This document shows, piece after piece, positions 21,931 to 40,658 of a stretch of 64,000 bases of DNA. Each line of letters opens with the position of its first letter. Positions within the stretch are counted from its first letter, which is position 1. The stretch lies in contig CACOYM010000002.1 in the NCBI GenBank assembly GCA_902631395.1, positions 62,001 to 126,000 of the forward strand, written 5' to 3'. This DNA comes from Halieaceae bacterium (GTDB taxonomy: Bacteria > Pseudomonadota > Gammaproteobacteria > Pseudomonadales > Halieaceae). Both the position numbers and the translations under genes were made by a program. The notes under the pieces were generated by a model that saw only the letters and a list, made by a program, of their open reading frames with translations, was not told the DNA's origin and ran no database searches.

Positions 21931-22668
21931 TCAGGGCAAGGTGTCCAAAGCGCGGAGACAACCGCGCGCTCCGGACGCCTCACACTGCGACAACACAAAC
22001 AATGCGCTCTGAGTTTCTAACTCATCAATTCTCATCGATGCCGCATTTCGAATTTCCTCGGCTTGCTGCTGGCCCTGAATCAACGCTAAAGAGGCCCAGA
22101 CATATGCTTGCGCTGATCGTCGCTTCACGTCCGTTCCATCAAGCAACATGAACGAAAGCATATATTGACTGTCTGCATATCCTTCAATCGCTGTCTCCCT
22201 GAACCCCTCGTAGGCCAACCGCCTATTCTGGATTTGCCCCTCACCCTCGAAATAACTCAGGGCAATCATGTAACGGCTTTCAGTTAGGCCCTTTTCAGCT
22301 GCTTTTCGGAAATGAATCAACCCTTGCGCCCAGCTTTTCGCTGCGCCATGGCCGTCAACGTACATCATGCCGAGGTTATGATCCGCTTCAGCTAAACCAC
22401 CGCTGGCCGCACGGCGATACCATTCCATCGCAACGTCATACTGCTGCGTCACGCCTAGGCCCTCTTCATACATGTACCCTATGTTGTGCTGAGCCTCAGG
22501 ATCCCCAGCTTCAGCCAAATCAGACCACGATCGCATAGCCGTGGCATAGTGCTGACGCTCCATCGCAGCGAGACCTGCCCGAAGTTTGTCCAGACGCATA
22601 TCGGCAGCCACCGTAGCAGGCAGAAATACCGCAATACCAAACATAATAAGGCGCTTAGTTGCGTTCAC
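21931..22668 (-). CDS. Sel1-like repeat protein, exported
   Basis: A signal peptide-like N-terminus (MFGIAVFLPATVAAD) precedes consecutive Sel1-type repeats, for example AEAGDPEAQHNIGYMYEEGLGV, ASGGLAEADHNLGMMYVDGHGA and AEKGLTESRYMIALSYFEGEG. These alpha/alpha repeats are protein-interaction scaffolds in the periplasm. The start overlaps the CLC gene by 14 bases, so it belongs to the end of the long motility-associated run. SLR proteins in flagellar loci can act as scaffolds (MotX carries Sel1 repeats), but this one is not shown to be MotX. Confidence 0.87.
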   Translation of the reverse strand: MNATKRLIMFGIAVFLPATVAADMRLDKLRAGLAAMERQHYATAMRSWSDLAEAGDPEAQHNIGYMYEEGLGVTQQYDVAMEWYRRAASGGLAEADHNLGMMYVDGHGAAKSWAQGLIHFRKAAEKGLTESRYMIALSYFEGEGQIQNRRLAYEGFRETAIEGYADSQYMLSFMLLDGTDVKRRSAQAYVWASLALIQGQQQAEEIRNAASMRIDELETQSALFVLSQCEASGARGCLRALDTLP

Positions 22669-24349: not shown

Positions 24350-24534
24350 TTCAGCGCTGCCGTTTTCTTTAGTGTTTCAACGGGGTACTCCGCCTGATGC
24401 TCTCGGATGTAACGATCAAAACATTGCTTTCGCTCTGCATCAGTGGGTTCATCCTGCGCGCACGCTCCCAGAAGCAGTATGACTGTCCCCCCCGCAACAC
24501 AGCAGCGTCGGAGGGGTTTTCGATAAGCATTCAA
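24337..24534 (-). CDS. Tiny lipoprotein of unknown function
   Basis: The 65-residue product has a basic N-terminus, a hydrophobic core and a lipobox LLGAC, leaving a mature protein of about 40 residues rich in charged residues with two further cysteines (KQCFD, ALKCYS). I do not recognise the family. It overlaps the stop of the upstream coiled-coil gene by four bases and the CLC start by 13, so it is cotranslated with both. Confidence 0.7.
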   Translation of the reverse strand: MNAYRKPLRRCCVAGGTVILLLGACAQDEPTDAERKQCFDRYIREHQAEYPVETLKKTAALKCYS

Positions 24535-26261
24535 GGCTCGCTACCACCATCAAGTGACGTGATCATATTGGCCTCATCCAGCACCTTACCCAGCCGGATC
24601 ATTGCGCTGGCCATGGCGTCCTCGACGTTGGTCGCGAATGCGAGGCGCCTGTCCACTGCCGATTTATATTCACCGATCAAAGTTGCCGCGTCCTGCGTCA
24701 AAACGTCAAGGCGAGCTTTCGTCTCTTCCGCATCTTTGTTGGCGCTATGTAATGCATCTTCGAGATTCCTCGTCAGCTCCTCTTTACGGCGCTGCACTGG
24801 CTCAAGGTGCCCTGCATATTGACGATCCGCGTCTCTCTCGGCGTCCGCCATTTTTTGATCCAGCTCTTCGATTCTTGCGCGCTGCTCCCGAATCGCCTCT
24901 CGCTGTTTCTTCATCCATTCAATGTATTGATCAATAGAATCCTCATAATCCACCTCATGCTCAGTGTCGCTTTCTTCAGAGGCAAAATCGCTGCTCGTCA
25001 ATGATTGCAGGACCGTCGCGGGCGGCTCGAGGGTCTCAGCGCCCAGTTTCTTGATCAATTCGTTTGCCTGATCTGCCTCAAGCTGAATCTCAGCTATCTG
25101 GCCTTTTATCTGCTGACCCTTTTGGGCAGCAATTGCAGTCTGCTCCCGAATCACATCGGTTAGTTCAGAAGAGAGCGAGCAAAGCCACTGGTTTTGAGTA
25201 CCGGACAGATCATCGCCATTCGGCTCACCTCTCAACCCGGCATCAATGAACGCAATGCATCTTCGGGAGTCCGCCAGCCGGCCCGCGCCTTGCTCTAACT
25301 CTACGCAGACATCCCGATAGTGTGACAAAGTATCGAGCTCTTGGGAGAAACAGCCGTCGAGCGCCTGCAAGCAGCTGGATGTCACACCACCCAGAACGTC
25401 GATAAATTCGTTCATATCGTCGCCATACCCACCAAAATGCTCAGACGCATCGACTGCGCGTTCACTTTGCAACCCGGCGCGGGCCTCACCTACCGCGCTG
25501 ATGAGCTGATCAGCATGAGCAAGATTCCCAATCAACTGCTCCGTCAAAGTTATCGCGTCGGCATGAACTCCATCTGTGTCATCACGCCCGCTCACCTCGC
25601 TGTCATCCGCTGCACCAGTTGGCTCCTCAGAGCCGCTCTCTGCGGTTAGAGACCCATCGACCACCTCTGAGGGCACCGCTAAATTGTCTTCACTATTGCC
25701 ATCTGTTTTTGAATCAGCGTTATCATCACTGTTGGCAGCCTCGCTGGTTATGAGACCTTCCTGCAGCTCCTCGACCAGAATTTGAAGCGCAATGCCCTGC
25801 TCAGCGAGATCTGGAGAATCCTCGATAGAGGTAAGGCATTTATTCAAAACTACAGCACGCTCAGTGAGACCGTCCGCCTCACCAGTCATTAAAATCGCAT
25901 GCAGCACCTCGTGACGGAAGGAGGTGAAGCCCTCAGAGAGCGGTGACATGCCCTCGGGAATTTGGCATAGGGCTGCGCCAACTGCTCGCAAGTCGGCATT
26001 GCTATCAACATTGATCAGTGCAAACTGATCGGTCACGGCCTTGATCACATCACTCATGGTTGCCCCCCTATCAGCTACTACTGGGGACTGTGAGGAGGGT
26101 GCTTGCTCGGGCGGATCAGATTCGTTTGGTGCATCAAGCCTCGTCGCCTCTTCAGCGTCGGTGAGCTCTTCGTCATCAGACGATTTACCAAAAAAACCAA
26201 AGAGCTTCATCGCGCGCCAGTCCCCCAGACAGTGCCTCACAGTCTGCTTATAGGACATCAT
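24531..26261 (-). CDS. Large acidic coiled-coil protein of unknown function
   Basis: I do not recognise the family. The 576 residues contain an acidic, Ser/Asp/Glu-rich low-complexity stretch (about residues 170-235). They also hold two helical regions with heptad character (about 375-400 and 450-540, e.g. QREAIREQRARIEELDQKM) and several cysteines in the middle. No signal peptide is evident, so it is probably cytoplasmic. An in-frame ATG at 26210 (MKLFGFFGKSSDDEE) is a plausible alternative start. It overlaps the tiny lipoprotein and follows the lipoprotein gene after 62 bases. Confidence 0.7.
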   Translation of the reverse strand: MMSYKQTVRHCLGDWRAMKLFGFFGKSSDDEELTDAEEATRLDAPNESDPPEQAPSSQSPVVADRGATMSDVIKAVTDQFALINVDSNADLRAVGAALCQIPEGMSPLSEGFTSFRHEVLHAILMTGEADGLTERAVVLNKCLTSIEDSPDLAEQGIALQILVEELQEGLITSEAANSDDNADSKTDGNSEDNLAVPSEVVDGSLTAESGSEEPTGAADDSEVSGRDDTDGVHADAITLTEQLIGNLAHADQLISAVGEARAGLQSERAVDASEHFGGYGDDMNEFIDVLGGVTSSCLQALDGCFSQELDTLSHYRDVCVELEQGAGRLADSRRCIAFIDAGLRGEPNGDDLSGTQNQWLCSLSSELTDVIREQTAIAAQKGQQIKGQIAEIQLEADQANELIKKLGAETLEPPATVLQSLTSSDFASEESDTEHEVDYEDSIDQYIEWMKKQREAIREQRARIEELDQKMADAERDADRQYAGHLEPVQRRKEELTRNLEDALHSANKDAEETKARLDVLTQDAATLIGEYKSAVDRRLAFATNVEDAMASAMIRLGKVLDEANMITSLDGGSEP

Positions 26262-26323
26262 AGAACCCAGCCTACAATACAGGCAAATGGCAATAAGAGA
26301 GAAAAGTACAGGCGAGGCCTGCT

Positions 26324-27595
26324 TTACAGTGTCAACGCCTCACAGTCAGCCTCGGTGATATCGTATTGCGCGGCCTGAGAGGTCGGCACCGACTCGTAGC
26401 ATACGCGAACATAGCGCAACTTGCTGAGGGGGTCGCTATACTCGCTCCCACGTCGAGTATACAAATCAAAACGAACGACACTATCACTGATACCACTTTG
26501 CAATATCAACATCAGGCCTGATTGACCCGAGCCAGTGGCTTCACCGACGGACACGGCGTAACCGGCCTGGTCCGACAAATCGCAATTGTCAACGCTGATT
26601 GACTCAGCCGGGATAATCGAGCCGTCTCCTTCAGTAGCAGTAATGAAATCAGTGTCGTATCGCGCAAGGGTTGCTGAGATCCCGCAGCGGGGAGTTTCAA
26701 GGTTATAACTGTCTCCCACCATTTCGTCCTGTGAGACGTTCAGATAATCCAGATTCTCAAGGAGAGACGACCTATAAATTCCTGTGATGTCCAGATCAGG
26801 TGAAACATAAGCCTCACCAGCCACGGCAAAATCAATATCGAACGTGTCACCGGTCTCTTCATATGAGTAAGTTAGTCCCAGCGGTCCGGTCTGCTGATAA
26901 GTAACTAGAAGCCCTACCACAGTCCTTACTTGAAGCTGGTCATCTACTCTCTCTTTACACTGACCGGATCCCGTTGCCTCAACACCATTGACCTCTACAT
27001 CCGCCACGCATAGTAAATTAATGAATGCAGTATCGTCGGTGGCCTGAGAATACCAAAAAAGCGTCCCGGCGCGGGTGAGGACGAAATTGTTTTCATCGAT
27101 CTCCGTTACCTGGCTGCGCCCAATTGTTAGTGAATACTCGCTCTCCGCACCACCTCCATACCTTCCACCAAAATTGGCGTCGATAAACAGAGAAATCTCA
27201 TCCTCGGCAGATGCACTTCCTGAGGTGGCCGTCACCTTCACAACATACGTGCCTGCAAGCAGCGCTGTCCCTGAGATGGTTTTAGCGGTTCCATCATGAG
27301 TGAGCTCAACAGGACCATCGTAAGTGACCGATGCGCTGTCTGCACTCGTACCCGTCACACTGTAACTGAGCGAGACGCCTTCATCTGCACGATATTTTGT
27401 TTGCCCGGTCAGCTCGATTGATAACTCATCAGCAGGTGATAACGCTCCGCCATCTGCACCTGCGCCGGAGCCGGCCTCGTCGCCACCCGAGCCGATGCCG
27501 CATCCGGCTAACAGCGCTAAAAGAACAGCAAAGCAAAAATGTTGCTGGCGGCAGTGCCCTCTTAAAAACCACCTTCCCATCCGGTAAAAGCGCAC
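26324..27595 (-). CDS. Large lipoprotein with an Ig/cadherin-like domain
   Basis: The N-terminus has a clear lipobox (LLALLAGCGIGSGG) followed by a Gly/Ala linker. Residues about 65-145 read as a beta-sandwich of the PKD/cadherin-like kind (SIELTGQTKYRADEGVSLSYSV, then LLAGTYVVKVTATSGSASAED). The C-terminal 270 residues are beta-rich with paired cysteines and unrecognised. Its ATG overlaps the last base of the upstream small gene stop, and that gene overlaps motB, so an outer-membrane or stator-linked role is suggested by context only. Confidence 0.78.
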   Translation of the reverse strand: MRFYRMGRWFLRGHCRQQHFCFAVLLALLAGCGIGSGGDEAGSGAGADGGALSPADELSIELTGQTKYRADEGVSLSYSVTGTSADSASVTYDGPVELTHDGTAKTISGTALLAGTYVVKVTATSGSASAEDEISLFIDANFGGRYGGGAESEYSLTIGRSQVTEIDENNFVLTRAGTLFWYSQATDDTAFINLLCVADVEVNGVEATGSGQCKERVDDQLQVRTVVGLLVTYQQTGPLGLTYSYEETGDTFDIDFAVAGEAYVSPDLDITGIYRSSLLENLDYLNVSQDEMVGDSYNLETPRCGISATLARYDTDFITATEGDGSIIPAESISVDNCDLSDQAGYAVSVGEATGSGQSGLMLILQSGISDSVVRFDLYTRRGSEYSDPLSKLRYVRVCYESVPTSQAAQYDITEADCEALTL

Positions 27596-27939
27596 TAGGC
27601 GTCCTCCACGCAGATATGGCTTTGCAACATCACCATCTCTTGATCACGCCGGTACTTTGACGAATCCATAAACCAGATAACAAGGTATCCGTAGGTCTTG
27701 TACTCCTGGCAGAGCTGTTCACCCATAGTTTCGTAATTGAGGCCTGACTGCACGTCGGGTGACGGCCAGATAACTAAGGCGTCTTTAGACAGCCTGGCGT
27801 CGTCGATAGTAGAAACCGATTTGACTCGATCAAGAAACGCCTTCTGAGATTTGGTTTGGGCCGCAGCGTTACCAGCGGCTACGCTCAGCAATGCCAGAAT
27901 AATGACTGCAAGCAGCTTTGACGTATACCGTGACATCAT
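27595..27939 (-). CDS. Small exported protein cotranslated with the stator genes
   Basis: The 114-residue product has a signal peptide (LLAVIILALLSVAAGNAAAQ) and a mature domain of about 85 residues with two cysteines (QLCQEYKTYGYLVIWFMD, QSHICVED). I do not recognise the family. The ATG overlaps the stop of the second motB-like gene (ATGA) and its stop overlaps the following lipoprotein. That is the layout expected of a periplasmic partner of the stator, but this is inference. Confidence 0.72.
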   Translation of the reverse strand: MMSRYTSKLLAVIILALLSVAAGNAAAQTKSQKAFLDRVKSVSTIDDARLSKDALVIWPSPDVQSGLNYETMGEQLCQEYKTYGYLVIWFMDSSKYRRDQEMVMLQSHICVEDA

Positions 27940-29204
27940 CCCGCTCCCCCTTTGACCGTAATTTCTATGCGTCGGTTTTGTGCTCGCCCCACAGCCGTAT
28001 CGTTGGAAGCAATCGGCACCGTATCGGCGAAGCCGGTAACCGAAACTGCTCCGGGCTCAATAAAACCCTCCCCTACGAGATAATCGGCCACCGAAGCGGA
28101 ACGCGCCGCAGACAAATCCCAATTCGACTGGAAACGCTCGCTGAATGCGACAGGCACATTATCAGTATGGCCAGCGACGGTGACTTGGCCAGGACTATCT
28201 ACCAGGGCCTGTCCGACACTGGACAATACGCTGTAGAAGCTGGTGCGAAGGTCTGCGCTCCCGCTGACAAAAGCGCCCTGATCAGCGAGGCTGATCCTTA
28301 CCTCGTCGTCTATGCGTTCAACAGCTACCTGGCCATTGGCAATTTCTGTTGTGAGCCGGCTGCGAATCTGCTCGTACTCACTTTGAGCGACATCCTCACC
28401 TTCTTTTAAATCAGATCCTTGCGCGTTGTCGAAGGACTGCTGTTCGGTAGAGGGTGAGCGCAGTACTTGCACCTCGGATACTACCTCCGCCTGTGCTTGC
28501 GCGACCTTTGCGAATAGCGCCACAGTATCTTCGTCTAGACGCTGTCCAGTTTCCAATCCTTCTGCACCCTGATTTTCACCATTTTTCTGATCGGCGGTCA
28601 TAACAACGCTGATCTTGCCATCCGCCTCGGTAACTGAGATCTGGCCGCGCGTAATCTCGTCCTCAAGCGCGCTTCTCACCTTTTCAAGGTCAGACGAGTT
28701 GGGGTCGTTGGAGGGTTTAGTAGTGATCTTTAACTCGGGATCCGGCGGCTGCTCCTCGTCTGTGGTTTGCTCACTAATAGTGCTGAGCGCCGTGGGCTCA
28801 ACCTTAGCCTGCATAAACTGATCAGCAATAATATTGTCGGCCGTAGGGGGTTCAACCACCGGCACCACGCGCTGCACACCCATGCTGTCATTCATAGAAC
28901 CACTGACCTCTTTGAATTTCGGCACATTCATCTGCGCAAATGACAGTAGCAATACAAAAAATGCCATCAGGAGCGTTGCCATGTCGGCAAAAGTCGCCAT
29001 CCAGGCTGGAGCACCGCCACCCGCACACTTGGGGCATTCAACCGGCGGCAGTTCCTCGGGTGGTTCAGGGGGTGGACCCTCTGGTACTGGTTCTTCGGGC
29101 ACTGCAGATGCCTGCGCCTCGGGTGCATCAGCGGATTCCGCATCCACGAACTCGGCGACCTCGCCCCCAGGCGTTTCAAGCTCAACATTTTCGTCTTCTG
29201 CCAC
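27936..29204 (-). CDS. motB: Flagellar stator protein MotB/PomB, second tandem copy
   Basis: An acidic N-terminus leads to CPKCAGGGAPAWMATFADMATLLMAFFVLLLSFA, which holds the single membrane span and the ion-binding aspartate (about residue 74). A long linker precedes an OmpA-like peptidoglycan-binding domain (AGHTDNVP, NWDLSAARSASV, NRRIEITV). MotB/PomB pairs with MotA/PomA to convert ion flow into torque. It lies 20 bases after the longer copy and shares with it the same CPKC and FADMATLLM block, so this is a duplicated stator subunit. The stop overlaps the next gene. Confidence 0.92.
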   Translation of the reverse strand: MAEDENVELETPGGEVAEFVDAESADAPEAQASAVPEEPVPEGPPPEPPEELPPVECPKCAGGGAPAWMATFADMATLLMAFFVLLLSFAQMNVPKFKEVSGSMNDSMGVQRVVPVVEPPTADNIIADQFMQAKVEPTALSTISEQTTDEEQPPDPELKITTKPSNDPNSSDLEKVRSALEDEITRGQISVTEADGKISVVMTADQKNGENQGAEGLETGQRLDEDTVALFAKVAQAQAEVVSEVQVLRSPSTEQQSFDNAQGSDLKEGEDVAQSEYEQIRSRLTTEIANGQVAVERIDDEVRISLADQGAFVSGSADLRTSFYSVLSSVGQALVDSPGQVTVAGHTDNVPVAFSERFQSNWDLSAARSASVADYLVGEGFIEPGAVSVTGFADTVPIASNDTAVGRAQNRRIEITVKGGAG

Positions 29205-29224
29205 GACTAGGCCCTCCGAATCAC

Positions 29225-30736
29225 TCAGTTATCTTCCACAATCACTTCAATACGGCGATTTCGGGCACGGCCCGTTGCAGTATCGTTGCTGTTGAGTGGC
29301 CGCGTATCGGCGAACCCTGCGATTTGCACATTGCCACCCTCGAGGTTAGTCGAGTTAAGCAAAAAGTCGGCGATGGATGCAGCACGAGCTGCGGACAAAT
29401 CCCAATTTGATTTAAATCGCTCGCTGAAGGCAACGGGCACGTTATCGGTATGCCCCTCAACCATCACACTACCGGGATATTGGGCGAGGCTGTTGCCAAG
29501 ACGTGTCAGAGTCGGCGTAAACGCCTGCCGCAAATCGGAAGATCCGGAGGTGAAACTGCCCTGACTGGCGAGTCTGACGATGATCTTGTCACCATCTTTC
29601 TCCACCTCAGCAAGGCCTGCTGCAATCTCGTCCGACAGGTCAGCACGCAAGCGGTCATATTTTGACATGCCGGAAGCGTCAGCGCCCTGCGACTGTCTCC
29701 GGTTCGCATTTGCGCCTGCTTGGTTTCCTTGAGCCTTGTCCGCCAGGTGCACACCGACGTTAGAACTGAGCGTGGTGGAGACTTCAGCAACCTTGGCGAC
29801 CGCATCCAGCGTCTCCTGTGCCACTTGTCCACCCTTGCCTTCGCCTGCCGAGCCCACCTTGCCGCCTGCAGAGGCGGGTTCTACAAGGGTCACCTTGATC
29901 TCCCCGTTTTCGATACGGACGTCTGCCATACCTTTATTGAGCTCTTGCTCAAGCGCTTCCTGCACCTGCTGAAAATCGCTCTCGATCGGATCTTCGTATT
30001 CGCCCTCCTCGGTTTTTTTCTCGATGAAGTCGCCACGCACGAAGTCAGATCGCTGCTCCTTCACATCCAGCACTGAGCGCTCTGCAACGGCCGGGGTAAA
30101 GTTTTCCACCACGATACTTCGGGCCATTGGGATGGTGACTTTGGGCACAATTTTTTCGATACCAAACGCCTGCTTCAACGAACCCGCAACCTGCTTGAAC
30201 TTGGGAACCTCTGTCTCAGCGAAGCTCAGCAGCAAAACGAAAAAAGCCATCAGCAAGGTTGCCATATCGGCGAAGGTCGCCATCCAGGCAGGCGCGCCAC
30301 CACCAGCGCACTTCGGGCAATCGTCTTTGGGCTCTTCCGGTGGGGGTGGTCCGAGTGGAGGAAGATCGGTCTCTTCGAGCTCTTCTTCTGCATCGCCCTC
30401 CTGAGCATCTTCCACCGCAGCATCGCCATCATCCTCTGCTGGAGACTCGTCCTCAACAGTTTCATCTTCTGGAGTCTCAGAAGGGTCAGCAAGATCGTCA
30501 GCTTCATTCTGAGCCGCGGCGTCGAGGGAAATTTCACCAGTCACGTCAGCTGCATCAGGCCCGCGATAGGTGGAGTCCGTCCCATCAGATTCTGACGCAG
30601 GTGTCAGAGCTTCTTCATCCGCGCCATCAGCAGCATTCGCTACAGAATCTGTCTGGCCCGCGCTCATAACATCAGAGGGTGCCTGAACGTCAGTATTCTG
30701 GCCCTCGGCTCCGGATTTGATGTCATCATCAGCCAC
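29225..30736 (-). CDS. motB: Flagellar stator protein MotB/PomB, first tandem copy with long acidic extension
   Basis: The layout matches its neighbour: CPKC at about residues 140-143, the ion-site aspartate near 157 in TFADMATLLMAF, and an OmpA-like C-terminus (EGHTDNVP, NWDLSAARAAS, RNRRIEVIV). Its first 138 residues are an acidic, repeat-poor extension (many Asp, Glu and Ala) far longer than the short cytoplasmic tail of usual MotB. This extension is predicted to be cytoplasmic and disordered. It is 33 bases downstream of motA. Two B subunits per A gene suggest alternative or mixed stators. Confidence 0.92.
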   Translation of the reverse strand: MADDDIKSGAEGQNTDVQAPSDVMSAGQTDSVANAADGADEEALTPASESDGTDSTYRGPDAADVTGEISLDAAAQNEADDLADPSETPEDETVEDESPAEDDGDAAVEDAQEGDAEEELEETDLPPLGPPPPEEPKDDCPKCAGGGAPAWMATFADMATLLMAFFVLLLSFAETEVPKFKQVAGSLKQAFGIEKIVPKVTIPMARSIVVENFTPAVAERSVLDVKEQRSDFVRGDFIEKKTEEGEYEDPIESDFQQVQEALEQELNKGMADVRIENGEIKVTLVEPASAGGKVGSAGEGKGGQVAQETLDAVAKVAEVSTTLSSNVGVHLADKAQGNQAGANANRRQSQGADASGMSKYDRLRADLSDEIAAGLAEVEKDGDKIIVRLASQGSFTSGSSDLRQAFTPTLTRLGNSLAQYPGSVMVEGHTDNVPVAFSERFKSNWDLSAARAASIADFLLNSTNLEGGNVQIAGFADTRPLNSNDTATGRARNRRIEVIVEDN

Positions 30737-30769: not shown

Positions 30770-31525
30770 TTACGCCGCTGCAATCTTCTCGCGGGCTTTT
30801 GGTGAGACAAACGAAGCAAGCATGTCGCCCAGCACTCTGGGGTTACCTCCCTCCTGCATAAACAACACGCCCTCAATCACCAACTCGTTATTGGCTGACT
30901 CTAGCGCAGAGGCATTTTCAAGCTTTTGCGCGATAGGTAAACAGATCACGTTGGCCAGAATTGCACCGTACATTGTTGTCAGTAGCGCAACCGCCATCGC
31001 TGGCCCAATAGCTTTGGGGTCCGACATGTTACCCAGCATAATTACCAAACCGGCCAGGGTTCCGATCATCCCCATTGCCGGCGCAATTTCTCCCCATGCA
31101 CTAAAAATTTTTGCCCCCATTTCGTGACGCAGCTTCATCATGTCGTTGTCGCGATTGAGTGAGCTCTTTATTATTTCGCCATCGGTGCCATCAACCAGCA
31201 TGGAAACCGCCTTGGCTAAAAAGGGATTGGCAATATCCTGGCCCTCCAGCGCGATCATGCCGTCTTTGCGCGCGATGTTGGCAAGCTCAACGATTTGGGT
31301 AATGAGCTCAACCGGGTCATCAATCTTTCTAGAAAAAGCCTTACCCATCACACCCATTGCGCCTAAGAACTCTCCAAGGGAACACCGCGCCATCACCACG
31401 GCTATCGAACCTGCGACCACGATCAGCAGGGAGGCGGTGTCCACGAACGCAGGAGCGTTTTCAGATATAGCCATGAAAATAAGGCCAAACGCCGCTAGCA
31501 AACCTACAATCGTCGCAATATCCAT
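30770..31525 (-). CDS. motA: Flagellar stator protein MotA/PomA
   Basis: From the internal ATG at 31525 the protein begins MDIATIVGLLAAFG, like PomA, and has GAGGAG upstream; the ORF-track start adds 13 residues. Four membrane spans are seen, including LIVVAGSIAVVMARCSL and the conserved pore segment PAMGMIGTLAGLVIMLGNM with DPKAIGPAMAVALLTTMYGA. The charged cytoplasmic loop (about residues 55-140) contacts the rotor. PomA likeness suggests sodium coupling, but ion choice cannot be proven from sequence. It is the first gene behind a FliA-type promoter. Confidence 0.95.
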   Translation of the reverse strand: MDIATIVGLLAAFGLIFMAISENAPAFVDTASLLIVVAGSIAVVMARCSLGEFLGAMGVMGKAFSRKIDDPVELITQIVELANIARKDGMIALEGQDIANPFLAKAVSMLVDGTDGEIIKSSLNRDNDMMKLRHEMGAKIFSAWGEIAPAMGMIGTLAGLVIMLGNMSDPKAIGPAMAVALLTTMYGAILANVICLPIAQKLENASALESANNELVIEGVLFMQEGGNPRVLGDMLASFVSPKAREKIAAA

Positions 31526-31671
31526 GAACCGCTCCTCAACATTGAACAGGTGAAGTATCTCCACCTAATATAGCAACACCATTTACATAGGTGATAGGTA
31601 ACAATTAGCGCATTGCCTCCCACGAGACCAAAGCGGTGCGAAAAGTTGCCTAGCGCCTATTTTCTTCCCAA

Positions 31672-31698
31672 ATATCGGCTTTTTAGACGAAAGCTTGA
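31672..31698 (-). promoter_or_regulatory. Sigma-28 (FliA) promoter of the motA run
   Basis: On the minus strand TCAAGCTT, 11 bases, GCCGATAT: 6/8 at -35 and 7/8 at -10, with exact spacing. It lies about 150 bases upstream of the motA start and is divergent from a second FliA promoter 70 bases away. Confidence 0.72.
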
Positions 31699-31766
31699 TT
31701 TTGACGTCGGACTCTCTGCAAATAAATACTAGGGCCTCAAAAAGGCGTTGTGTTAGCGTCGATTTT

Positions 31767-31793
31767 TAAAGGTAAATGCGCCGAATCCGATAG
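31767..31793 (+). promoter_or_regulatory. Sigma-28 (FliA) promoter of the DUF1566 lipoprotein gene
   Basis: TAAAGGTA, exactly 11 bases, TCCGATAG: good matches at both hexamer cores (TAAAG, CCGATA). It points toward the lipoprotein start about 180 bases downstream, placing that gene in the late flagellar regulon. Confidence 0.78.
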
Positions 31794-31970: not shown

Positions 31971-32513
31971 ATGGGAGCGATAGGAAAGCATAGTAACCGG
32001 GTACTTTTATCGAGCCTAATGCTCCTTACGGTACTCGCTGGTTGCAATGACCAACGCAATCAACCCGATTGCAGCGACGTTTATAAAAGCCGCATTGATG
32101 AAAATGACTTCGACGTACTTGATGGTGGCATCGCGCTTCATAGACCTACAGGCCTTACGGTTACGCAATGTGCCGTTGGTCAACGGATGAGCAACTTCCG
32201 CTGTCGGGGGAACTCATTAAAGCTGAGCTGGGATGACGCTATGGCCTACGCCAGTGAAGTGGCAGAAAAAACGGGTGAAGCATGGCGGTTGCCGGAGAAA
32301 GGTGAAATACCAAAAATCCTCGAAAATAAATGCATTAACCCTGCCGCTAACCCGTTCGTATTCCCGGGGCTAGAGGTGGCGAATTTTTGGACGGCATCGA
32401 AGGGGCTTCACCAAGATAAATTTCGCTGTTCAATTTATTCCTATCAAGGCAGGGTTTTTTGCAGACAGGCACGAGATATTGCTCAACCTTTTTTACTGGT
32501 GAAAGGTAACTAG
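31971..32513 (+). CDS. DUF1566-type lipoprotein under FliA control
   Basis: A lipobox (TVLAGCND) predicts a lipoprotein. The mature domain resembles DUF1566/FGE-like folds: SWDDAMAYASEVAEKTGEAWRLPEKGEI, then NPFVFPGLEVANFWTAS, with six cysteines outside the lipobox. CAGGGGG sits about eight bases before ATG 31971, which is preferred over the GTG at 31962. It is transcribed divergently from the stator genes from its own sigma-28 promoter. That makes a cell-surface motility or adhesion accessory role likely, though none is known. Confidence 0.8.
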   Translation: MGAIGKHSNRVLLSSLMLLTVLAGCNDQRNQPDCSDVYKSRIDENDFDVLDGGIALHRPTGLTVTQCAVGQRMSNFRCRGNSLKLSWDDAMAYASEVAEKTGEAWRLPEKGEIPKILENKCINPAANPFVFPGLEVANFWTASKGLHQDKFRCSIYSYQGRVFCRQARDIAQPFLLVKGN

Positions 32514-32520
32514 TCAGGGC

Positions 32521-32706
32521 CTAACGCACTGGCTTTAGGTGGTGCTTTGGCTCACAGCGTTTACAAGCGGCGCCATCGGCTCTCAACACTTCCAGACACG
32601 GTAGCTGGCGAGATTTAAACCCCATCACTGCGCAAGCGTATGGGAACGCCTTATGGTGAGTTATCTGAAAATGCCGGCATTTCCAGCAATTAGCCTGTCT
32701 ATTCAT
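32521..32706 (-). CDS. Small cysteine-rich protein
   Basis: Starting at ATG 32706 the product has 61 residues with a zinc-knuckle-like layout: CWKCRHF, YACAVMGF, LPCLEVL, and a final CKRCEP. Similar short proteins are widespread in proteobacteria and have no assigned function. The ORF-track start at 32775 adds 23 residues that lie inside the upstream gene. The start overlaps the end of the membrane-protein gene by eight bases. Confidence 0.7.
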   Translation of the reverse strand: MNRQANCWKCRHFQITHHKAFPYACAVMGFKSRQLPCLEVLRADGAACKRCEPKHHLKPVR

Positions 32707-33034
32707 GGTCGGATCGCGACTCTTGAGCTGGCTCAGAGGTCTCACACTCGCTGTATTGCTCCGCCGCCTCATCAAACTTAGCCTTGGCTTCTGCTAGTGC
32801 CCTCTCTCGCTTGCGCGGCAAATAATATTCCTCGTGGGCACGATAAGCGACGATCAATATCAGTGCCGCCAAACAGCCCCAGGATAAAAGATCGATCAAT
32901 TCAACACGGGCAAACCACGGGGCCTCCGAACCCAGACCACCGCCCATTGTGCTAGCACCCACCAGTGCCAACAACGGTACTGCGAACAACAGATACGTGC
33001 GAATGATCTTACATACCGCGCACTCCTGCGCCAT
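32699..33034 (-). CDS. Small membrane protein with CxxC N-terminus
   Basis: The 111-residue protein begins MAQECAVCKI, has two hydrophobic spans (TYLLFAVPLLALVGAS and LLSWGCLAALILIVAYRA), and ends in a charged, helical cytoplasmic tail rich in Ala, Glu and Lys. I do not recognise the family. It follows the Maf gene after three bases and overlaps the small cysteine-rich gene, so the three are probably cotranscribed. Confidence 0.65.
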   Translation of the reverse strand: MAQECAVCKIIRTYLLFAVPLLALVGASTMGGGLGSEAPWFARVELIDLLSWGCLAALILIVAYRAHEEYYLPRKRERALAEAKAKFDEAAEQYSECETSEPAQESRSDHE

Positions 33035-35071: not shown

Positions 35072-35146
35072 AACTATTGAATGAGGTTGTCGCAGGCAAA
35101 AGTTAGGACATGCCGCGTCAAAGTGACTAATAAGTAGGAGGCCGTG

Positions 35147-36010
35147 ATGGCAGTAGTTAATACCAACGTGAACGCTACGGTTGCGCAGAACGCATTGATT
35201 CGCAACGAGCGTCAAATGAACACCGCTATGGAGCGGCTGTCAACAGGCCAAAGAATCAATGGCGCAAAGGACGATGCGGCAGGTCTGGCGATTTCATCTC
35301 GCATGACTTCACAAATTCTGGGCCTGGAAGCGGGCATTAGAAATGCAAATGATGCTATCAGCATGATTAGCACCGCAGATGGAGCGTTGGTTGAAGTTAC
35401 CAACATGCTGCAGCGGATGCGCGAACTTGCGGTACAGGCCTCCAATGGGACTACTACAGAAGATGACCGCACTTTCCTTAACTCCGAGTACCAGAACCTG
35501 ATTACTGAGATCGACCGCATTGCACAAAACACACAGTGGAACGGTGGAGCGATCCTTAACCATACGACTACGGCTAGCAGCACATATAAGTATCAAGTCG
35601 GAGCGAACGGTGGCCAAACAATTGCTGTGGACTTTGGAGACTTCAATAACACTGGGGCCTCAGGCGTTATGCAGAACGTGAACTCGGCAAATGGCAGTAT
35701 TGCGGCTGGCACTACTGCGTCCGCTATTACAACTGGATCAGCGGCCATCACATCGATCGACTCTGCTATTACCGCAGTAAATACGCAGCGATCGACTTTC
35801 GGTGCCGCTATTAACCAACTTACTTACGCAGTTGACAATCTAGCTAGTGTTAAAGTTAATGCGGAAGCTTCTCGCAGCCGGATTCTTGATACGGATTACG
35901 CGCTGGAGACCTCTGAGCTTGCCAGAACACAGATCATCCAGCAGGCGGGTACCGCGATGCTGGCGCAGGCCAACCAACTGCCTCAAACGGTGCTTTCGCT
36001 GCTGCAGTGA
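35147..36010 (+). CDS. fliC: Flagellin 1
   Basis: The D0/D1 ends are typical: MAVVNTNVNATVAQNAL, ERLSTGQRINGAKDDAAGLAISSRM, and a C-terminal ELARTQIIQQAGTAMLAQANQLPQTVLSLLQ-type helix. The middle is short and Ala/Ser/Thr-rich (GTTASAITTGSAA), so surface domains D2/D3 are nearly absent; length is 287 residues. ATG 35147 has TAGGAGG five bases upstream; the track adds one GTG-coded residue. Flagellin forms the filament and is exported with FliS help. A FliA promoter and a strong terminator flank it. Confidence 0.96.
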   Translation: MAVVNTNVNATVAQNALIRNERQMNTAMERLSTGQRINGAKDDAAGLAISSRMTSQILGLEAGIRNANDAISMISTADGALVEVTNMLQRMRELAVQASNGTTTEDDRTFLNSEYQNLITEIDRIAQNTQWNGGAILNHTTTASSTYKYQVGANGGQTIAVDFGDFNNTGASGVMQNVNSANGSIAAGTTASAITTGSAAITSIDSAITAVNTQRSTFGAAINQLTYAVDNLASVKVNAEASRSRILDTDYALETSELARTQIIQQAGTAMLAQANQLPQTVLSLLQ

Positions 36011-36034
36011 GAGTGAGGTCATTGAAAAACGCAA

Positions 36035-36060
36035 AAGCGCCCAATCGGGCGCTTTTTTTT
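36035..36060 (+). terminator. Rho-independent terminator after flagellin 1
   Basis: AAGCGCCC and GGGCGCTT pair around AATC, followed by a run of T. It closes the flagellin 1 transcript, so flagellin 2 needs its own promoter. Confidence 0.93.
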
Positions 36061-36293
36061 CTCTTAAAAACAGAGACTCTGCGATCAACGGGCTGAAAAT
36101 AGAAATTTGACCAGCTAAATCCCCTCACACTCCCTTAATTTGGCGACATGAAGCCTATAGCTCTCGGGGCGGCAACACCTTGCCGGTAACCATATTCGTT
36201 AAATGCGCGTATACCCGCCACTAATATAAAAAAATAAAAAGAAAAAATTATTTTTATATATATATCAGTGCTTTATGAATTTTTAATAAAAAT
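36061..36293. other. AT-rich spacer between flagellins 1 and 2
   Basis: About 230 bases with no ORF of coding character. The last third is very AT-rich (runs such as aaaaaataaaaag and tatatatata), as is common upstream of sigma-54 promoters, where activator or IHF binding occurs. No defined IHF site was assigned. Confidence 0.5.
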
Positions 36294-36309
36294 TGGCACG
36301 CTTTCTGCT
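36294..36309 (+). promoter_or_regulatory. Sigma-54 (RpoN) promoter of flagellin 2
   Basis: TGGCACG-CTTT-CTGCT: the GG and GC dinucleotides are ten bases apart, as in the -24/-12 consensus TGGCACG-N4-TTGCW, with one mismatch. It ends about 48 bases before the flagellin 2 ATG. This is unlike the sigma-28 promoters of flagellins 1, 4 and 5. Confidence 0.85.
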
Positions 36310-36356
36310 CCTCCAATACCGCTAACACCCAACTATGCCGTTGGAGGAGATTAAAC

Positions 36357-37211
36357 ATGGCAGTTGTGAATACGAACATTAGCGCTTCATTAGCGCAGGC
36401 ATCACTTGCCAAGAACGAGCGAGCGCTAAGTAAGGCGATGGAACAACTCTCCACTGGTAAAAAGATAAATTCAGCTGGGGATGATGCCGCAGGTCTAGCA
36501 ATCAGTTCTCGCATGACGTCGCAAATCGTGGGTTTAGAGCAATCCGTGCAAAACGCTCACGATGCGATCAGCATGATTCAAACTGCCGAGAGCGCGTTGG
36601 ATGAGATGACCAATATGTTGGTGCGAATGCGCGAACTAGCGCTTCAGGCATCCAACGGCACCACGTCCCTTGCTGATAGGGACTTCCTGCATCAGGAGTA
36701 TGAGCGGTTGGTCGCCGAAATCGACCGGATTGCTAACAACACTGAGTGGAATGCGCGCCCTGTGCTAAACGGAAACGCAGGTGGTACTGGAGTCACCGAC
36801 GTTTCCTATCAGGTAGGTGGAAACGCCGGGCAGACCATTTCTGTAACCTTCGGGACTATGGTAGGTGGCGGCAGCGGGTCACCTCTGTCGGGTACAGTCA
36901 TTTCAGGCGCCACAACAGCCGCTGCCCAAACCGTCGCATCTGCTGCGATGACAGGGATTGACCAAGCGATTGAAAATGTTAGTAACCAGCGCGCCTCCTT
37001 TGGAGCTGCGGTTAATCAACTCACACATGCGATCGATAATTTAACTCAGGTCTCTATTAACGCTGCGTCGACGCGGAGTCGCATCATGGACACTGATTAC
37101 GCGCATGCTACCTCGGAGCTCGCAAAGACACAGATCATCCAACAAGCAGGTACCGCGATGCTCGCGCAAGCAAATCAGTTGCCCGCTAACGTATTGGATT
37201 TATTGAAGTAG
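36357..37211 (+). CDS. fliC: Flagellin 2 (divergent copy, sigma-54 promoter)
   Basis: N-terminus MAVVNTNISASLAQASLAKNERAL and STGKKINSAGDDAAGLAISSRM, C-terminus ending QLPANVLDLLK; 284 residues. It is the most different of the plus-strand copies, with a distinct central region (QVGGNAGQTISVTFGTMVGGG) and a different final segment. TTGGAGGAG lies eight bases before the ATG. Sigma-54 control suggests expression before FliA is released, as for the essential flagellin of polar flagella in Vibrio; it may build the filament base. No terminator separates it from flagellin 3. Confidence 0.95.
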   Translation: MAVVNTNISASLAQASLAKNERALSKAMEQLSTGKKINSAGDDAAGLAISSRMTSQIVGLEQSVQNAHDAISMIQTAESALDEMTNMLVRMRELALQASNGTTSLADRDFLHQEYERLVAEIDRIANNTEWNARPVLNGNAGGTGVTDVSYQVGGNAGQTISVTFGTMVGGGSGSPLSGTVISGATTAAAQTVASAAMTGIDQAIENVSNQRASFGAAVNQLTHAIDNLTQVSINAASTRSRIMDTDYAHATSELAKTQIIQQAGTAMLAQANQLPANVLDLLK

Positions 37212-37313
37212 TAAGCGATGAGAATCTGCGTGAATGGTTACAAAGTTTTCCGTAACGCAAAGCTCTTCGAAAATTAATCAACAAGGCAAACACAGCAATA
37301 TAGGGAGGCCGTC

Positions 37314-38186
37314 ATGGCAGTTGTTAACACTAACGTAGGCGCTACGATCGCACAAAATGCGTTGGCAAAAAATGAGCGCGCAATGAATACCGCCATGGAA
37401 CGTCTGTCTACAGGCGCCCGGATTAATGGCGCCAAAGATGATGCAGCTGGTCTGGCAATTTCATCACGAATGACTTCGCAGATACGAGGCCTTGACATGG
37501 GGATTCGTAATGCCAACGACGCGATCAGCATGCTCCAGACCGCTGACGGCGCGCTGATAGAAGTCACTAACATGCTTCAGCGAATGAGGGAGCTAGCAGT
37601 ACAGTCATCAAATGGAACTACCACAGAAGATGATCGTACTTACCTCAATTCCGAGTACGCGAACCTCATATCAGAGATGGAGCGCATCGCCAACAACACA
37701 CAGTGGAACGGGCGATCAATCCTGCAGGGCGATGCTAACGCAGCTGGTGACTCTAACGTGAAGTTCCAGGTTGGGGCCAACGGTGGGCAAACAGTGGCTG
37801 TGGATTTTGGGGATATCTCTCAATCTGGAGGAGCAACATTCCAAAATTTCAGTGCTGCTGCAGCTACCGCGTCAATCGCAGCGGGCACAACGGCCTCAGC
37901 TATTACTACAGGCTCAGCAGCGATCACTGCTGTGGACAGCGCAATTACTGCCGTCAACACGCAGAGAGCGACTTTTGGTGCTGCAATAAACCAGCTGACA
38001 TACGCTATCGACAATTTGGCGAGCGTTAAAGTCAACGCCGAAGCATCAAGGAGCAGAGTGCTTGATGCGGACTACGCAAAAGAAACTTCTGAATTAGCTA
38101 GGACACAGATTATTCAGCAGGCTGGCACAGCGATGCTTGCGCAGGCTAACCAACTCCCTCAAACAGTTCTGTCGCTCTTACAATAA
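37314..38186 (+). CDS. fliC: Flagellin 3
   Basis: The protein begins MAVVNTNVGATIAQNALAKNERAM and ends QLPQTVLSLLQ, 290 residues, with the same thin Ala/Ser/Thr-rich centre as flagellin 1. The leader TAGGGAGGCCGTCATGG is almost identical to those of flagellins 1 and 5, indicating recent duplication. Unlike them, no FliA or sigma-54 promoter was found in the 100 bases upstream, so it may be read through from flagellin 2. Its residues GDANAAGDS and KFQVGANGGQT match flagellin 5 closely. Confidence 0.95.
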   Translation: MAVVNTNVGATIAQNALAKNERAMNTAMERLSTGARINGAKDDAAGLAISSRMTSQIRGLDMGIRNANDAISMLQTADGALIEVTNMLQRMRELAVQSSNGTTTEDDRTYLNSEYANLISEMERIANNTQWNGRSILQGDANAAGDSNVKFQVGANGGQTVAVDFGDISQSGGATFQNFSAAAATASIAAGTTASAITTGSAAITAVDSAITAVNTQRATFGAAINQLTYAIDNLASVKVNAEASRSRVLDADYAKETSELARTQIIQQAGTAMLAQANQLPQTVLSLLQ

Positions 38187-38202
38187 TCAGACTGAAAAGA
38201 AA

Positions 38203-38226
38203 AAACGCCCTTACGGGCGTTTTTTT
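38203..38226. terminator. Bidirectional rho-independent terminator between flagellin 3 and flaG
   Basis: ACGCCC and GGGCGT pair around TTAC, with A-rich bases on the left and a T-run on the right, so the hairpin can stop transcription from both sides. It lies between the converging ends of flagellin 3 and flaG. Confidence 0.88.
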
Positions 38227-38249
38227 ATAGCTTCGATCATTGGCCGTTC

Positions 38250-38672
38250 TCACAGCGTTTCATCAAAGAGTATTCCTTTCAACTCCTCGAGGTTCCGCGC
38301 AAACTTCAACAAAGCCTCGTCAGGAATTTCTCTCACGATTTCGCCTGAAACTTCGTCTTTTATCGTTACGAGGAACCGATTGAGCTGCTCATCTCTGCGG
38401 ATCTGTGCACTGGTGTTTTTCCTACTCAAAGCTTCATTGAGAATTTCTACTGCATCATCTATGGACTCACTAACCGATGCCAAAGTGCTTAGACTTTTGA
38501 TCTTACCCTCAGCTGCATCGGCCGCGACTTGAGCCACGGATACGTCTGGTCTCACTGGCTCCGCGACATCAGACCGCGCCCGTGTGTCAGTTTTGGGCTG
38601 TTGAGAACGGCCACCCCCTGTGGACACCATATCCCGAGGCGCTGCCGCTGTGCTTGAAGCAATGTTATCCAT
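38250..38672 (-). CDS. flaG: FlaG family protein
   Basis: The C-terminal half carries the FlaG pattern: LNRFLVTIKDEVSGEIVREIPDEALLKFARNLEELKG. The first 60 residues are polar and low in order. FlaG affects filament length in polar-flagellated bacteria and sits beside flagellin genes, as here. It is 140 residues, follows flagellin 4 across a terminator and converges on flagellin 3. No promoter with correct FliA spacing was seen upstream. Confidence 0.9.
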   Translation of the reverse strand: MDNIASSTAAAPRDMVSTGGGRSQQPKTDTRARSDVAEPVRPDVSVAQVAADAAEGKIKSLSTLASVSESIDDAVEILNEALSRKNTSAQIRRDEQLNRFLVTIKDEVSGEIVREIPDEALLKFARNLEELKGILFDETL

Positions 38673-38685
38673 GTCTCAATCTCTC

Positions 38686-38731
38686 AAAAAAGGCGCCATA
38701 AAAGCGGGCTCACTTTTATGAAATCGGCGCC
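38686..38731 (-). terminator. Rho-independent terminator after flagellin 4
   Basis: On the minus strand GGCGCC pairs with a second GGCGCC, and inside it CATAAAAG pairs with CTTTTATG. Six T follow. The two-part stem lies just after the flagellin 4 stop and before flaG. Confidence 0.78.
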
Positions 38732-38742
38732 CACACCGCTCC

Positions 38743-39600
38743 TTACTTTAGCAACGCCAGTACCGTGGCCGTCACTTGATTTGCCTGTGCAAGCATCGCG
38801 AGCCCGGCCTGATGAATTATCTGCGTTCTCGCCAGCTCAGAGGTCTCCTGAGCATAGTCAGTATCTTCTATCCTGGACCGTGCCGCCTCGGAATTGACTT
38901 TAACACTAGCCAGATTGTCAATGGCGTGGGTTAGCTGATTTATTGCAGCACCGAACGTGGCTCGATTCTCATTCAGCTCAGTAATTGCGGCGTCAATTTT
39001 AGTAACTGCTGCGCTACCAGTCGTGATGGCGGACGCAGTTGTACCAGCGGCGATCGAAACCGCTGCGCCAGTGGATGAGAAACTGCCGAAAGCCGATCCA
39101 TTAGTTTGATCGACCGCTGCAAAACTGACTGCTATCGTTTGCCCACCGTTTGCACCCACCTGATATTTGATAGAGTTGCTGGCAACATTAAGAATGTCGG
39201 AGCCATTCCATTGGGTATTTTGCGCAATACGCTCTATTTCAGCATGCAGATTCTGATATTCCGTATTGAGGTAAGTGCGGTCATCTTCTGTGGTAGTACC
39301 GTTGGCAGACTGGAGCGCCAGTTCCCGCATTCGTTGCAGCATATTGCCGATTTCTACCATCGCGCCGTCAGCGACGCTTATCATACTTATCGCATCGCCG
39401 GCATTCTTCATACCCGCCTCTAACCCTCGAATTTGCGAGGTCATTCTGGCAGAGATAGCGAGCCCCGCTGCATCGTCTTCAGCGCCGTTTATTCTCTTGC
39501 CTGTAGACAGCCGTTCCATAGCGGTATTCATAGAACGCTCGTTTTTGTTCAAAGCGTTCTCAGCAATAGTCGCAGAAATGTTTGTGTTAACTGAAGCCAT
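38743..39600 (-). CDS. fliC: Flagellin 4 (divergent copy)
   Basis: From ATG 39600 (GGGAG eight bases upstream) the protein reads MASVNTNISATIAENALNKNERSM with STGKRINGAEDDAAGLAISARM, and ends ARTQIIHQAGLAMLAQANQVTATVLALLK; 285 residues. The N-terminus and last helix differ from flagellins 1, 3 and 5, so it is an older paralogue. The centre is again Ser/Thr/Ala-rich. The track start (39615) is a TTG without its own Shine-Dalgarno. A FliA promoter lies about 58 bases upstream of the start. Confidence 0.95.
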   Translation of the reverse strand: MASVNTNISATIAENALNKNERSMNTAMERLSTGKRINGAEDDAAGLAISARMTSQIRGLEAGMKNAGDAISMISVADGAMVEIGNMLQRMRELALQSANGTTTEDDRTYLNTEYQNLHAEIERIAQNTQWNGSDILNVASNSIKYQVGANGGQTIAVSFAAVDQTNGSAFGSFSSTGAAVSIAAGTTASAITTGSAAVTKIDAAITELNENRATFGAAINQLTHAIDNLASVKVNSEAARSRIEDTDYAQETSELARTQIIHQAGLAMLAQANQVTATVLALLK

Positions 39601-39657
39601 ATCTTTATCTCCCAATGAAGCCCAGCAGCTGGAAATCGTTTAATTCTTCATCTTTAA

Positions 39658-39684
39658 TTATCGGTAGAATGCAGAGAATCTTTA
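39658..39684 (-). promoter_or_regulatory. Sigma-28 (FliA) promoter of flagellin 4
   Basis: On the minus strand TAAAGATT, exactly 11 bases, ACCGATAA: near-consensus at both elements. It lies about 58 bases upstream of the flagellin 4 ATG. Confidence 0.87.
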
Positions 39685-39741
39685 ATACCGCGAACAAATT
39701 TTTGCGATCTTTTAGGCGCTGCGTTTAAAACACCTCTCCAT

Positions 39742-39767
39742 AAAAAAAGCACCCAATTGGGTGCTTT
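39742..39767 (-). terminator. Rho-independent terminator after flagellin 5
   Basis: AAAGCACCC pairs perfectly with GGGTGCTTT around AATT; on the minus strand a seven-T run follows. It closes the flagellin 5 transcript upstream of the flagellin 4 promoter. Confidence 0.92.
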
Positions 39768-39785
39768 AAAAAATCTTGCCGAACG

Positions 39786-40658
39786 TCACTGGAGAAGTGA
39801 GAGAACGGTCTGCGGCAGCTGGTTGGCCTGGGCCAGCATTGCAGTGCCAGCTTGCTGGATAATTTGCGTTCTAGCCAACTCAGAAGTTTCAGATGCGTAG
39901 TCCGTATCCAGAATTCTACTTCGAGACGCTTCTGCATTGACTTTAACACTGGACAGATTGTCGATGGCATAGGTCAACTGGTTCACGGCTGCGCCGAAAG
40001 TTGCACGCTGAGTATTAACAGCCGTTATTGCAGAATCTATCTTGGTCACCGCTGCGGACCCGGTAGTGATGGCTGATGCGGTAGTTCCTGCGGAGATGAA
40101 GGAGCCCGTAGCGCCTGCACTGAACGCAGCAAACTCCGTGCTTCCTGATTGCGAAATATCACCAAAATCTACCGCGATAGTCTGCCCGCCATTCGCACCC
40201 ACTTGGAATTTGACAGAGGAGTCCCCGGCAGCGTTTGCATCGCCATGCAATATAACCTTGGCGTTAAACTCTGTCGCGTCAGCAATCCGCTCCATCTCAT
40301 TAATGAGATTTGAATATTCATCATGAAGAAAATCTCTGTCGGCCGCAGTCGTTGTTCCGTTAGCCGACTGCAGGGCTAGCTCCCGCATACGTTGCAACAT
40401 GTTAGTGACTTCAACAAGAGCCCCGTCAGCAGTTTGAATCATACTTACGGCGTCATTAGCGTTTCGGACACCCATATCAAGACCTCGGATTTGCGAAGTC
40501 ATTCTGGAAGAGATAGCCAACCCAGCGGCATCATCTTTAGCGCTATTGATACGCTGACCGGTAGAGAGCTTCTCCATGGCAGCATTCATCTGGCGCTCGT
40601 TGCGCACCAGTGCGTTTTGCGCGACGGTAGCGTTCACATTGGTATTTACAACTGCCAT
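39786..40658 (-). CDS. fliC: Flagellin 5
   Basis: The protein begins MAVVNTNVNATVAQNALVRNERQM, contains STGQRINSAKDDAAGLAISSRM, and ends QLPQTVLSLLQ; 290 residues. It is closest to flagellins 1 and 3 and shares the leader AGGAGGCCGTCATGG with flagellin 3, but stands in the opposite direction. The centre keeps FQVGANGGQTIAVDFGDISQSG and GTTASAITTGSAA. A FliA promoter lies about 67 bases upstream. The inverted near-identity with flagellin 3 could allow recombination. Confidence 0.95.
   Translation of the reverse strand: MAVVNTNVNATVAQNALVRNERQMNAAMEKLSTGQRINSAKDDAAGLAISSRMTSQIRGLDMGVRNANDAVSMIQTADGALVEVTNMLQRMRELALQSANGTTTAADRDFLHDEYSNLINEMERIADATEFNAKVILHGDANAAGDSSVKFQVGANGGQTIAVDFGDISQSGSTEFAAFSAGATGSFISAGTTASAITTGSAAVTKIDSAITAVNTQRATFGAAVNQLTYAIDNLSSVKVNAEASRSRILDTDYASETSELARTQIIQQAGTAMLAQANQLPQTVLSLLQ

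Follow-up and report, generated by a model that had tools for sequence, protein, structure and literature searches.

A DUF1566 lipoprotein gene with a FliA-type promoter opposite motA, co-inherited with one stator clade in Luminiphilus and Litoricola

Genes at the motA-lipoprotein locus

The window analysed here is a stretch of 64,000 nucleotides (contig CACOYM010000002.1 of assembly GCA_902631395.1, positions 62,001 to 126,000) from a genome that groups with Halieaceae/Luminiphilus assemblies. Within it, motA and the gene for an Lcl_C/DUF1566 lipoprotein lie back to back, each with its own FliA (sigma-28)-type promoter. The motA gene (30770..31525, reverse strand; ATG at 31525 after GAGGAG) encodes a PomA-like stator A subunit (PF01618, 6.4e-27), for which the best NCBIfam model was that of PomA (NF006527), at 316.9 bits slightly below the cut-off of 341. 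On the same strand lie motB1 (29225..30736), which has a long N-terminal extension and conserved synteny, and in tandem with it motB2 (27936..29204), both encoding proteins with MotB_plug and OmpA domains. The two B subunits (27936-30736) are about 45% identical and both follow the single motA, and a stator of mixed B subunits is therefore possible. Two motB copies are present in Luminiphilus and in the K189A clade (L115, L116), and one in Litoricola. The interval from motB2 to a ClC-type channel gene (24531-27939) holds three proteins conserved in Luminiphilus: a secreted one of 114 aa, one of 423 aa with an Ig-like domain, and a coiled coil of 576 aa.

The lipoprotein gene (31971..32513, forward strand, with its likely start at the ATG at 31971) encodes 180 aa, with a signal peptide and the lipobox LAGC, and shares the Lcl_C/DUF1566 domain above the curated cut-off (PF07603, 4.4e-12; 46.8 bits against 34.9). 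The protein is small and repeat-free, with a single domain that makes up most of the mature region, and Lcl_C was the sole family matched by all 26 aligned lipoproteins (at 0.001). Read off this alignment, the lipobox is of the LAGC or LTGC type, the lipid-bearing Cys25 is invariant, and so are six further cysteines (Cys34, 67, 78, 121, 153 and 164), which suggest disulfides. In the pairs close enough to measure, dN was far below dS (dN/dS of 0.014/0.21, 0.029/0.69 and 0.035/0.27), so purifying selection acts on the protein. Lipoproteins of Luminiphilus have Asn, Gly, Ser or Ala directly after the lipid cysteine, those of Litoricola an Asp or Glu, and those of the K189A clade an Asp; as this position varies by lineage, it does not reveal the target membrane. 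In E. coli, Asp at this position favours the inner membrane.

Searches beyond the alignment returned little that resembles the protein. Neither the domain searches for ring or scaffold families nor those for catalytic or cell-wall-binding domains gave a match, PDB sequence searches found no relative, and the structures predicted for the full-length and mature forms (from 26 and 20 sequences) reached pLDDT values of only 48.3 and 47.4, which is below what a fold search would need. No viral contig encoded a relative, and the DUF1566 proteins in plasmid records were all distant, at about 30% identity. A class-wide profile search returned many DUF1566 proteins, and the other loci checked from it had no motor gene within their 3-kb stretch. 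In the open-access literature searched, no tie was found between DUF1566 and the flagellar motor or stator.

Divergent FliA-type promoters

Two FliA-type elements point outward from the region between the two genes, as the preliminary description had noted: one toward motA (31672..31698, reverse strand), reading TCAAGCTT-TCGTCTAAAAA-GCCGATAT in full on its own strand, and one toward the lipoprotein gene (31767..31793, forward strand), reading TAAAGGTA-AATGCGCCGAA-TCCGATAG. Each consists of an TAAAGTTT-like -35 element, an 11-base spacer and an GCCGATAA-like -10 element. That description had given them as TAA/TCAA-N11-CCGAT, 70 bases apart; N11 is correct for the spacer, but measured from the four-base word the gap is 16, and TCAA/TAAA-N16-CCGAT is the usual sigma-28 layout of 8 + 11 + 8, while the separation of the two elements is 68 bases.

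These elements are part of a wider pattern in the genome, which itself encodes FliA (TIGR02479, 215 bits against a cut-off of 189.6). Across the 2.3-Mb assembly, TMAA-N16-CCGATA had 26 matches, against 4 for a reversed-pattern control, and several of the other sites lie upstream of fliS, flagellin genes and flgM. The two elements were scored with a promoter matrix from which both were left out, built from seven other sites of the source genome and the E. coli consensus. The six top-scoring sites in the window belonged to fliS, three flagellins, motA (19.2 bits) and the lipoprotein (17.7 bits), with the seventh at 14.1 bits, and in 500 dinucleotide shuffles of the intergenic sequence no site scored as high as either of the two. 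With one mismatch tolerated, the bare motif occurred 39 times in the window against 27.6 expected; so mild an enrichment makes the loose motif unconvincing alone, and it is therefore the stringent score and the conservation that carry the case. On this evidence the FliA sites would switch on both motA and the lipoprotein gene, FliA being the sigma factor that probably uses them in the cell.

Other FliA-type sites accompany other gene clusters. Five clustered flagellin genes adjoin an MptE-like (Maf-type) gene at 35144-40658, and at least three of them have FliA-type sites above 18 bits. A second FliA-type site next to lipoprotein-like genes, TAAAGATG-N11-GCCGATAT, precedes two small genes of this kind elsewhere in the genome (L171:1787-2733; G000:C4:136786), and the FliA regulon may therefore include more envelope proteins.

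The intergenic region matched no Rfam family, and it contains two further conserved elements. Upstream of the FliA site of the lipoprotein gene, a run of invariant columns reading TGTGTTAGCGT (31749..31759, forward strand) is a possible extended -10 of a putative second promoter. Its TGTG-TA-C-T pattern is invariant in Luminiphilus; the extended -10-like motif has a single match in the window, a count no better than chance, and is accompanied by no clear -35. In the motA leader (31567-31600), TTGCTATATT, which may be another extended -10, does not vary among the eight aligned Luminiphilus loci. In one subclade an inverted repeat with covarying arms (TTTGTGCCC/GGGCACAAA versus AATTGTTGTC/GACAACAATT) lies before it, and it is in this Luminiphilus subclade only that the covarying hairpin is clear.

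Conservation of the promoters among relatives

Both divergent elements are kept in 8 of 10 Luminiphilus-type loci. The motA-side element is nearly invariant in these loci and is conserved across all Luminiphilus loci but G044/L109, and the remaining intergenic sequence drifts. The two departures differ in extent: G024/L107 has kept the motA-side FliA site and lost the lipoprotein-side site, though it still carries TGTGCTATCGT at the conserved upstream element, whereas neither side of G044/L109 carries a clear FliA site, only weak ones at best. In the K189A clade (L112, L114-L116), the strict FliA motif is missing from both sides.

The Litoricola loci (HIMB30, LSUCC0096 and relatives) have an intergenic region of only about 160 bases (162), and in most of them FliA-type sites are found on both sides, nearly touching, with sequences of their own and a spacing different from that in Luminiphilus. 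With the pattern used, L111 and L113 are without a motA-side site and L126 without a lipoprotein-side site; in LSUCC0096-type loci, the lipoprotein-side spacer is one base longer. The lipoprotein-side site persists near the start codon. In HIMB30-type Litoricola (L121:5866-5952, L124) the divergent FliA -35 elements are just a few bases apart, which makes simultaneous occupancy by two polymerases improbable.

FliA control of the lipoprotein is thus well supported by sequence comparison in two lineages, Luminiphilus and Litoricola; as neither the K189A clade nor two divergent Luminiphilus loci have a recognisable lipoprotein-side site, such control is not family-wide. The preliminary description had placed the lipoprotein in the FliA regulon. 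The matrix scores, the presence of fliA and the recurrence of the site pair in Luminiphilus and Litoricola uphold this assignment, but G024/L107, G044/L109 and the K189A clade keep it from being universal.

Co-inheritance with one stator clade

Wherever both ends of a locus could be read, the lipoprotein gene is divergent from motA; the exceptions to this arrangement are L103, which lies at a contig edge, and L128, whose protein is 26% identical and has unrelated surroundings. In the genus sample, the lipoprotein was present in 10 of 10 genomes with this MotA and in 0 of 17 with another MotA (Fisher 1.2e-7, which overstates independence because the genomes are related). The genomes compared are mostly incomplete metagenome assemblies, and any single absence is therefore weak.

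The phylogeny of the stator follows the same division. In a tree of 45 MotA sequences, all lipoprotein loci fell in one clade with support of 100/100, which joins Luminiphilus, Litoricola and K189A; other Luminiphilus MotA proteins fall elsewhere. The lone unlabelled row of this clade, L127, does contain part of the lipoprotein gene, truncated where the contig stops. Identities of MotA and of the lipoprotein are correlated (r = 0.87). As the lipoprotein loci coincide with one MotA clade, the module appears to have been gained or lost together with its stator, and the earlier proposal that the lipoprotein is made with the stator is strengthened by this correspondence between the sequences. The lipoprotein is therefore likely an uncharacterised part or helper of the flagellar motor. 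Its co-inheritance fits any function tied to the motility system, that of a scaffold being one.

Further candidate members of the module

The secreted Sel1-repeat protein encoded at 21931..22668 (reverse strand; PF08238) resembles MotX in architecture only. It was found in the same eleven genomes as the lipoprotein, as well as in G029, a fragmented assembly, with a 38% match in G018, and in Litoricola its gene directly follows motB. It is not a true MotX, scoring 26.1 bits against the cut-off of 330 for NF047621.

Convergent to the lipoprotein gene is that of a small CxxC protein of about 61 aa (32521..32706, reverse strand), and upstream of this is the gene of a 111-aa membrane protein that also has a CxxC motif (32699..33034, reverse strand). 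Both are candidate members of the module. Among 98 relatives, eight genomes were found to encode the small protein, each of them with the lipoprotein as well, and its gene adjoins that of the lipoprotein in 23 loci; in Luminiphilus, K189A and Litoricola alike, the genes of both CxxC proteins lie next to the lipoprotein gene. One of the pair (32521-33034) looks cytosolic and the other has membrane segments, and the best family assignment was a weak match to DUF350.

MotY_N (PF18393) was absent from all lipoprotein-bearing genomes of the sample, including the source genome. It was also absent from the rest of the family in the sample, including close relatives with another stator and no lipoprotein; a loss of MotY specific to lipoprotein carriers is thereby rejected, and the absence of MotY_N alone demands no substitute.

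Discussion

Co-regulation of this lipoprotein with the stator is very probable. The explanation we favour extends this to a mechanism: FliA, active late in flagellar assembly, would turn on the stator operon motA-motB1-motB2 and, in the opposite direction, the Lcl_C lipoprotein. The lipoprotein would be exported, tethered to the envelope by its lipid and stabilised by disulfides, and would assist a single stator type from the periplasm or the outer membrane. There it may recruit or anchor stator units, perhaps with the Sel1-repeat protein, in a job like that of the T ring. Taken whole, as stator co-regulation by FliA plus an accessory scaffold lipoprotein, we give this explanation a probability of about 0.5; its mechanical part, the envelope-anchored stator scaffold, is drawn by analogy and remains tentative, at or just short of even odds.

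The nearest analogy is the T ring of Vibrio. MotX, the Sel1-repeat tip of that ring, contacts PomB and is joined to the basal body through MotY (PMC9093738), and its gene belongs to the FliA class in V. cholerae (PMC6504787). Like the T-ring protein, the secreted Sel1-repeat protein described here travels with a PomA-like stator. Unlike in Vibrio, MotY_N is lacking and the Sel1-repeat protein falls far below the MotX cut-off, and where the T-ring partner is the peptidoglycan-binding MotY, the partner here is a predicted lipid-anchored Lcl_C protein. The lipoprotein itself is not a T-ring MotY, having Lcl_C as its sole domain and no MotY_N. Hence the module would at best work like the Vibrio T ring, without being a member of that family of structures. 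A more doubtful extension is that a scaffold of the Lcl_C and Sel1-repeat proteins, perhaps with the small CxxC proteins, replaces the T ring in one marine gammaproteobacterial motor clade, and moves between lineages with its own stator.

Two other systems offer points of comparison. FlgP of Vibrio is an outer-membrane lipoprotein required for motility (PMC6504787), but the H-ring genes flgP and flgO of V. cholerae are of class III, dependent on sigma-54, rather than FliA genes, whereas the lipoprotein gene here has a FliA site. Nor does the lipoprotein look like an FlgP by sequence: a lipoprotein of that type would be expected to match some other Pfam family, and no family besides Lcl_C was found in any of the 26 sequences. 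In the Fla2 system of Cereibacter sphaeroides, rotation depends on MotK and MotE, lineage-specific periplasmic proteins whose interaction partner is the stator protein MotB2 (PMC10954123). They provide a precedent for lineage-specific periplasmic partners of the stator, and any likeness to the lipoprotein would be one of role.

The lipoprotein could instead be a surface lectin or adhesin, as the preliminary description had also suggested beside a surface or ring component of the motor, binding particles or algal glycans and merely timed with motility by FliA. DUF1566 is known from the C-termini of adhesins, from scattered lipoproteins and as a target of diversity-generating retroelements, and the name Lcl_C itself derives from the Legionella collagen-like adhesin, although the collagen-like repeats that precede the C-terminal domain in that adhesin have no counterpart here. 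C-type-lectin folds have been reported for DUF1566 domains (PMC6642488), and V. cholerae FliA has been linked to a surface haemagglutinin (PMC6504787). An adhesin would not, however, be expected to track one stator clade exactly, nor to stay adjacent to motA over three lineages, and co-inheritance as exact as this with one particular stator points to a role linked to the motor instead. A small, single-domain protein without repeats is also an unpromising adhesin, as is one in which the lipid cysteine is followed by the acidic residues found in Litoricola and the K189A clade. Adhesion is thus the weaker reading when set against the motor scaffold, and we consider it unlikely.

A general envelope role, such as remodelling of the cell wall or sensing in the envelope close to the motor, with no physical contact to the stator, is comparably improbable. 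The neighbourhood gives it some appeal, since it includes the small CxxC proteins and, in Luminiphilus, the ClC-type channel and secreted proteins, and the co-inherited set extends beyond the stator. Set against this are the domain searches, which found no catalytic or cell-wall-binding domain, and the links of the lipoprotein, the tightest and most widespread of which is to motA and motB. Least probable of all is that FliA control is incidental, with the lipoprotein mainly expressed from a housekeeping promoter at the conserved TGTGNTAGCNT and the FliA-like site minor: the invariance of that element, its retention in G024 and the loci without a lipoprotein-side FliA site would suit this reading, but its frequency in the window is that of chance and it has no clear -35, whereas the FliA site is kept close to the start codon in Litoricola and scores on a par with flagellin promoters.

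The scaffold reading gains its interest from the part of the motor that it concerns, as the periplasmic parts that hold the stator are where flagellar motors vary most. The locus draws attention to a set of uncharacterised proteins of the Luminiphilus and Litoricola groups whose inheritance strictly follows that of one stator clade. Litoricola includes the isolates HIMB30 and LSUCC0096, and both groups are without MotY where checked. If the lipoprotein is a part of the motor, then the DUF1566 domain would gain a mechanical role beside that of ligand binding.
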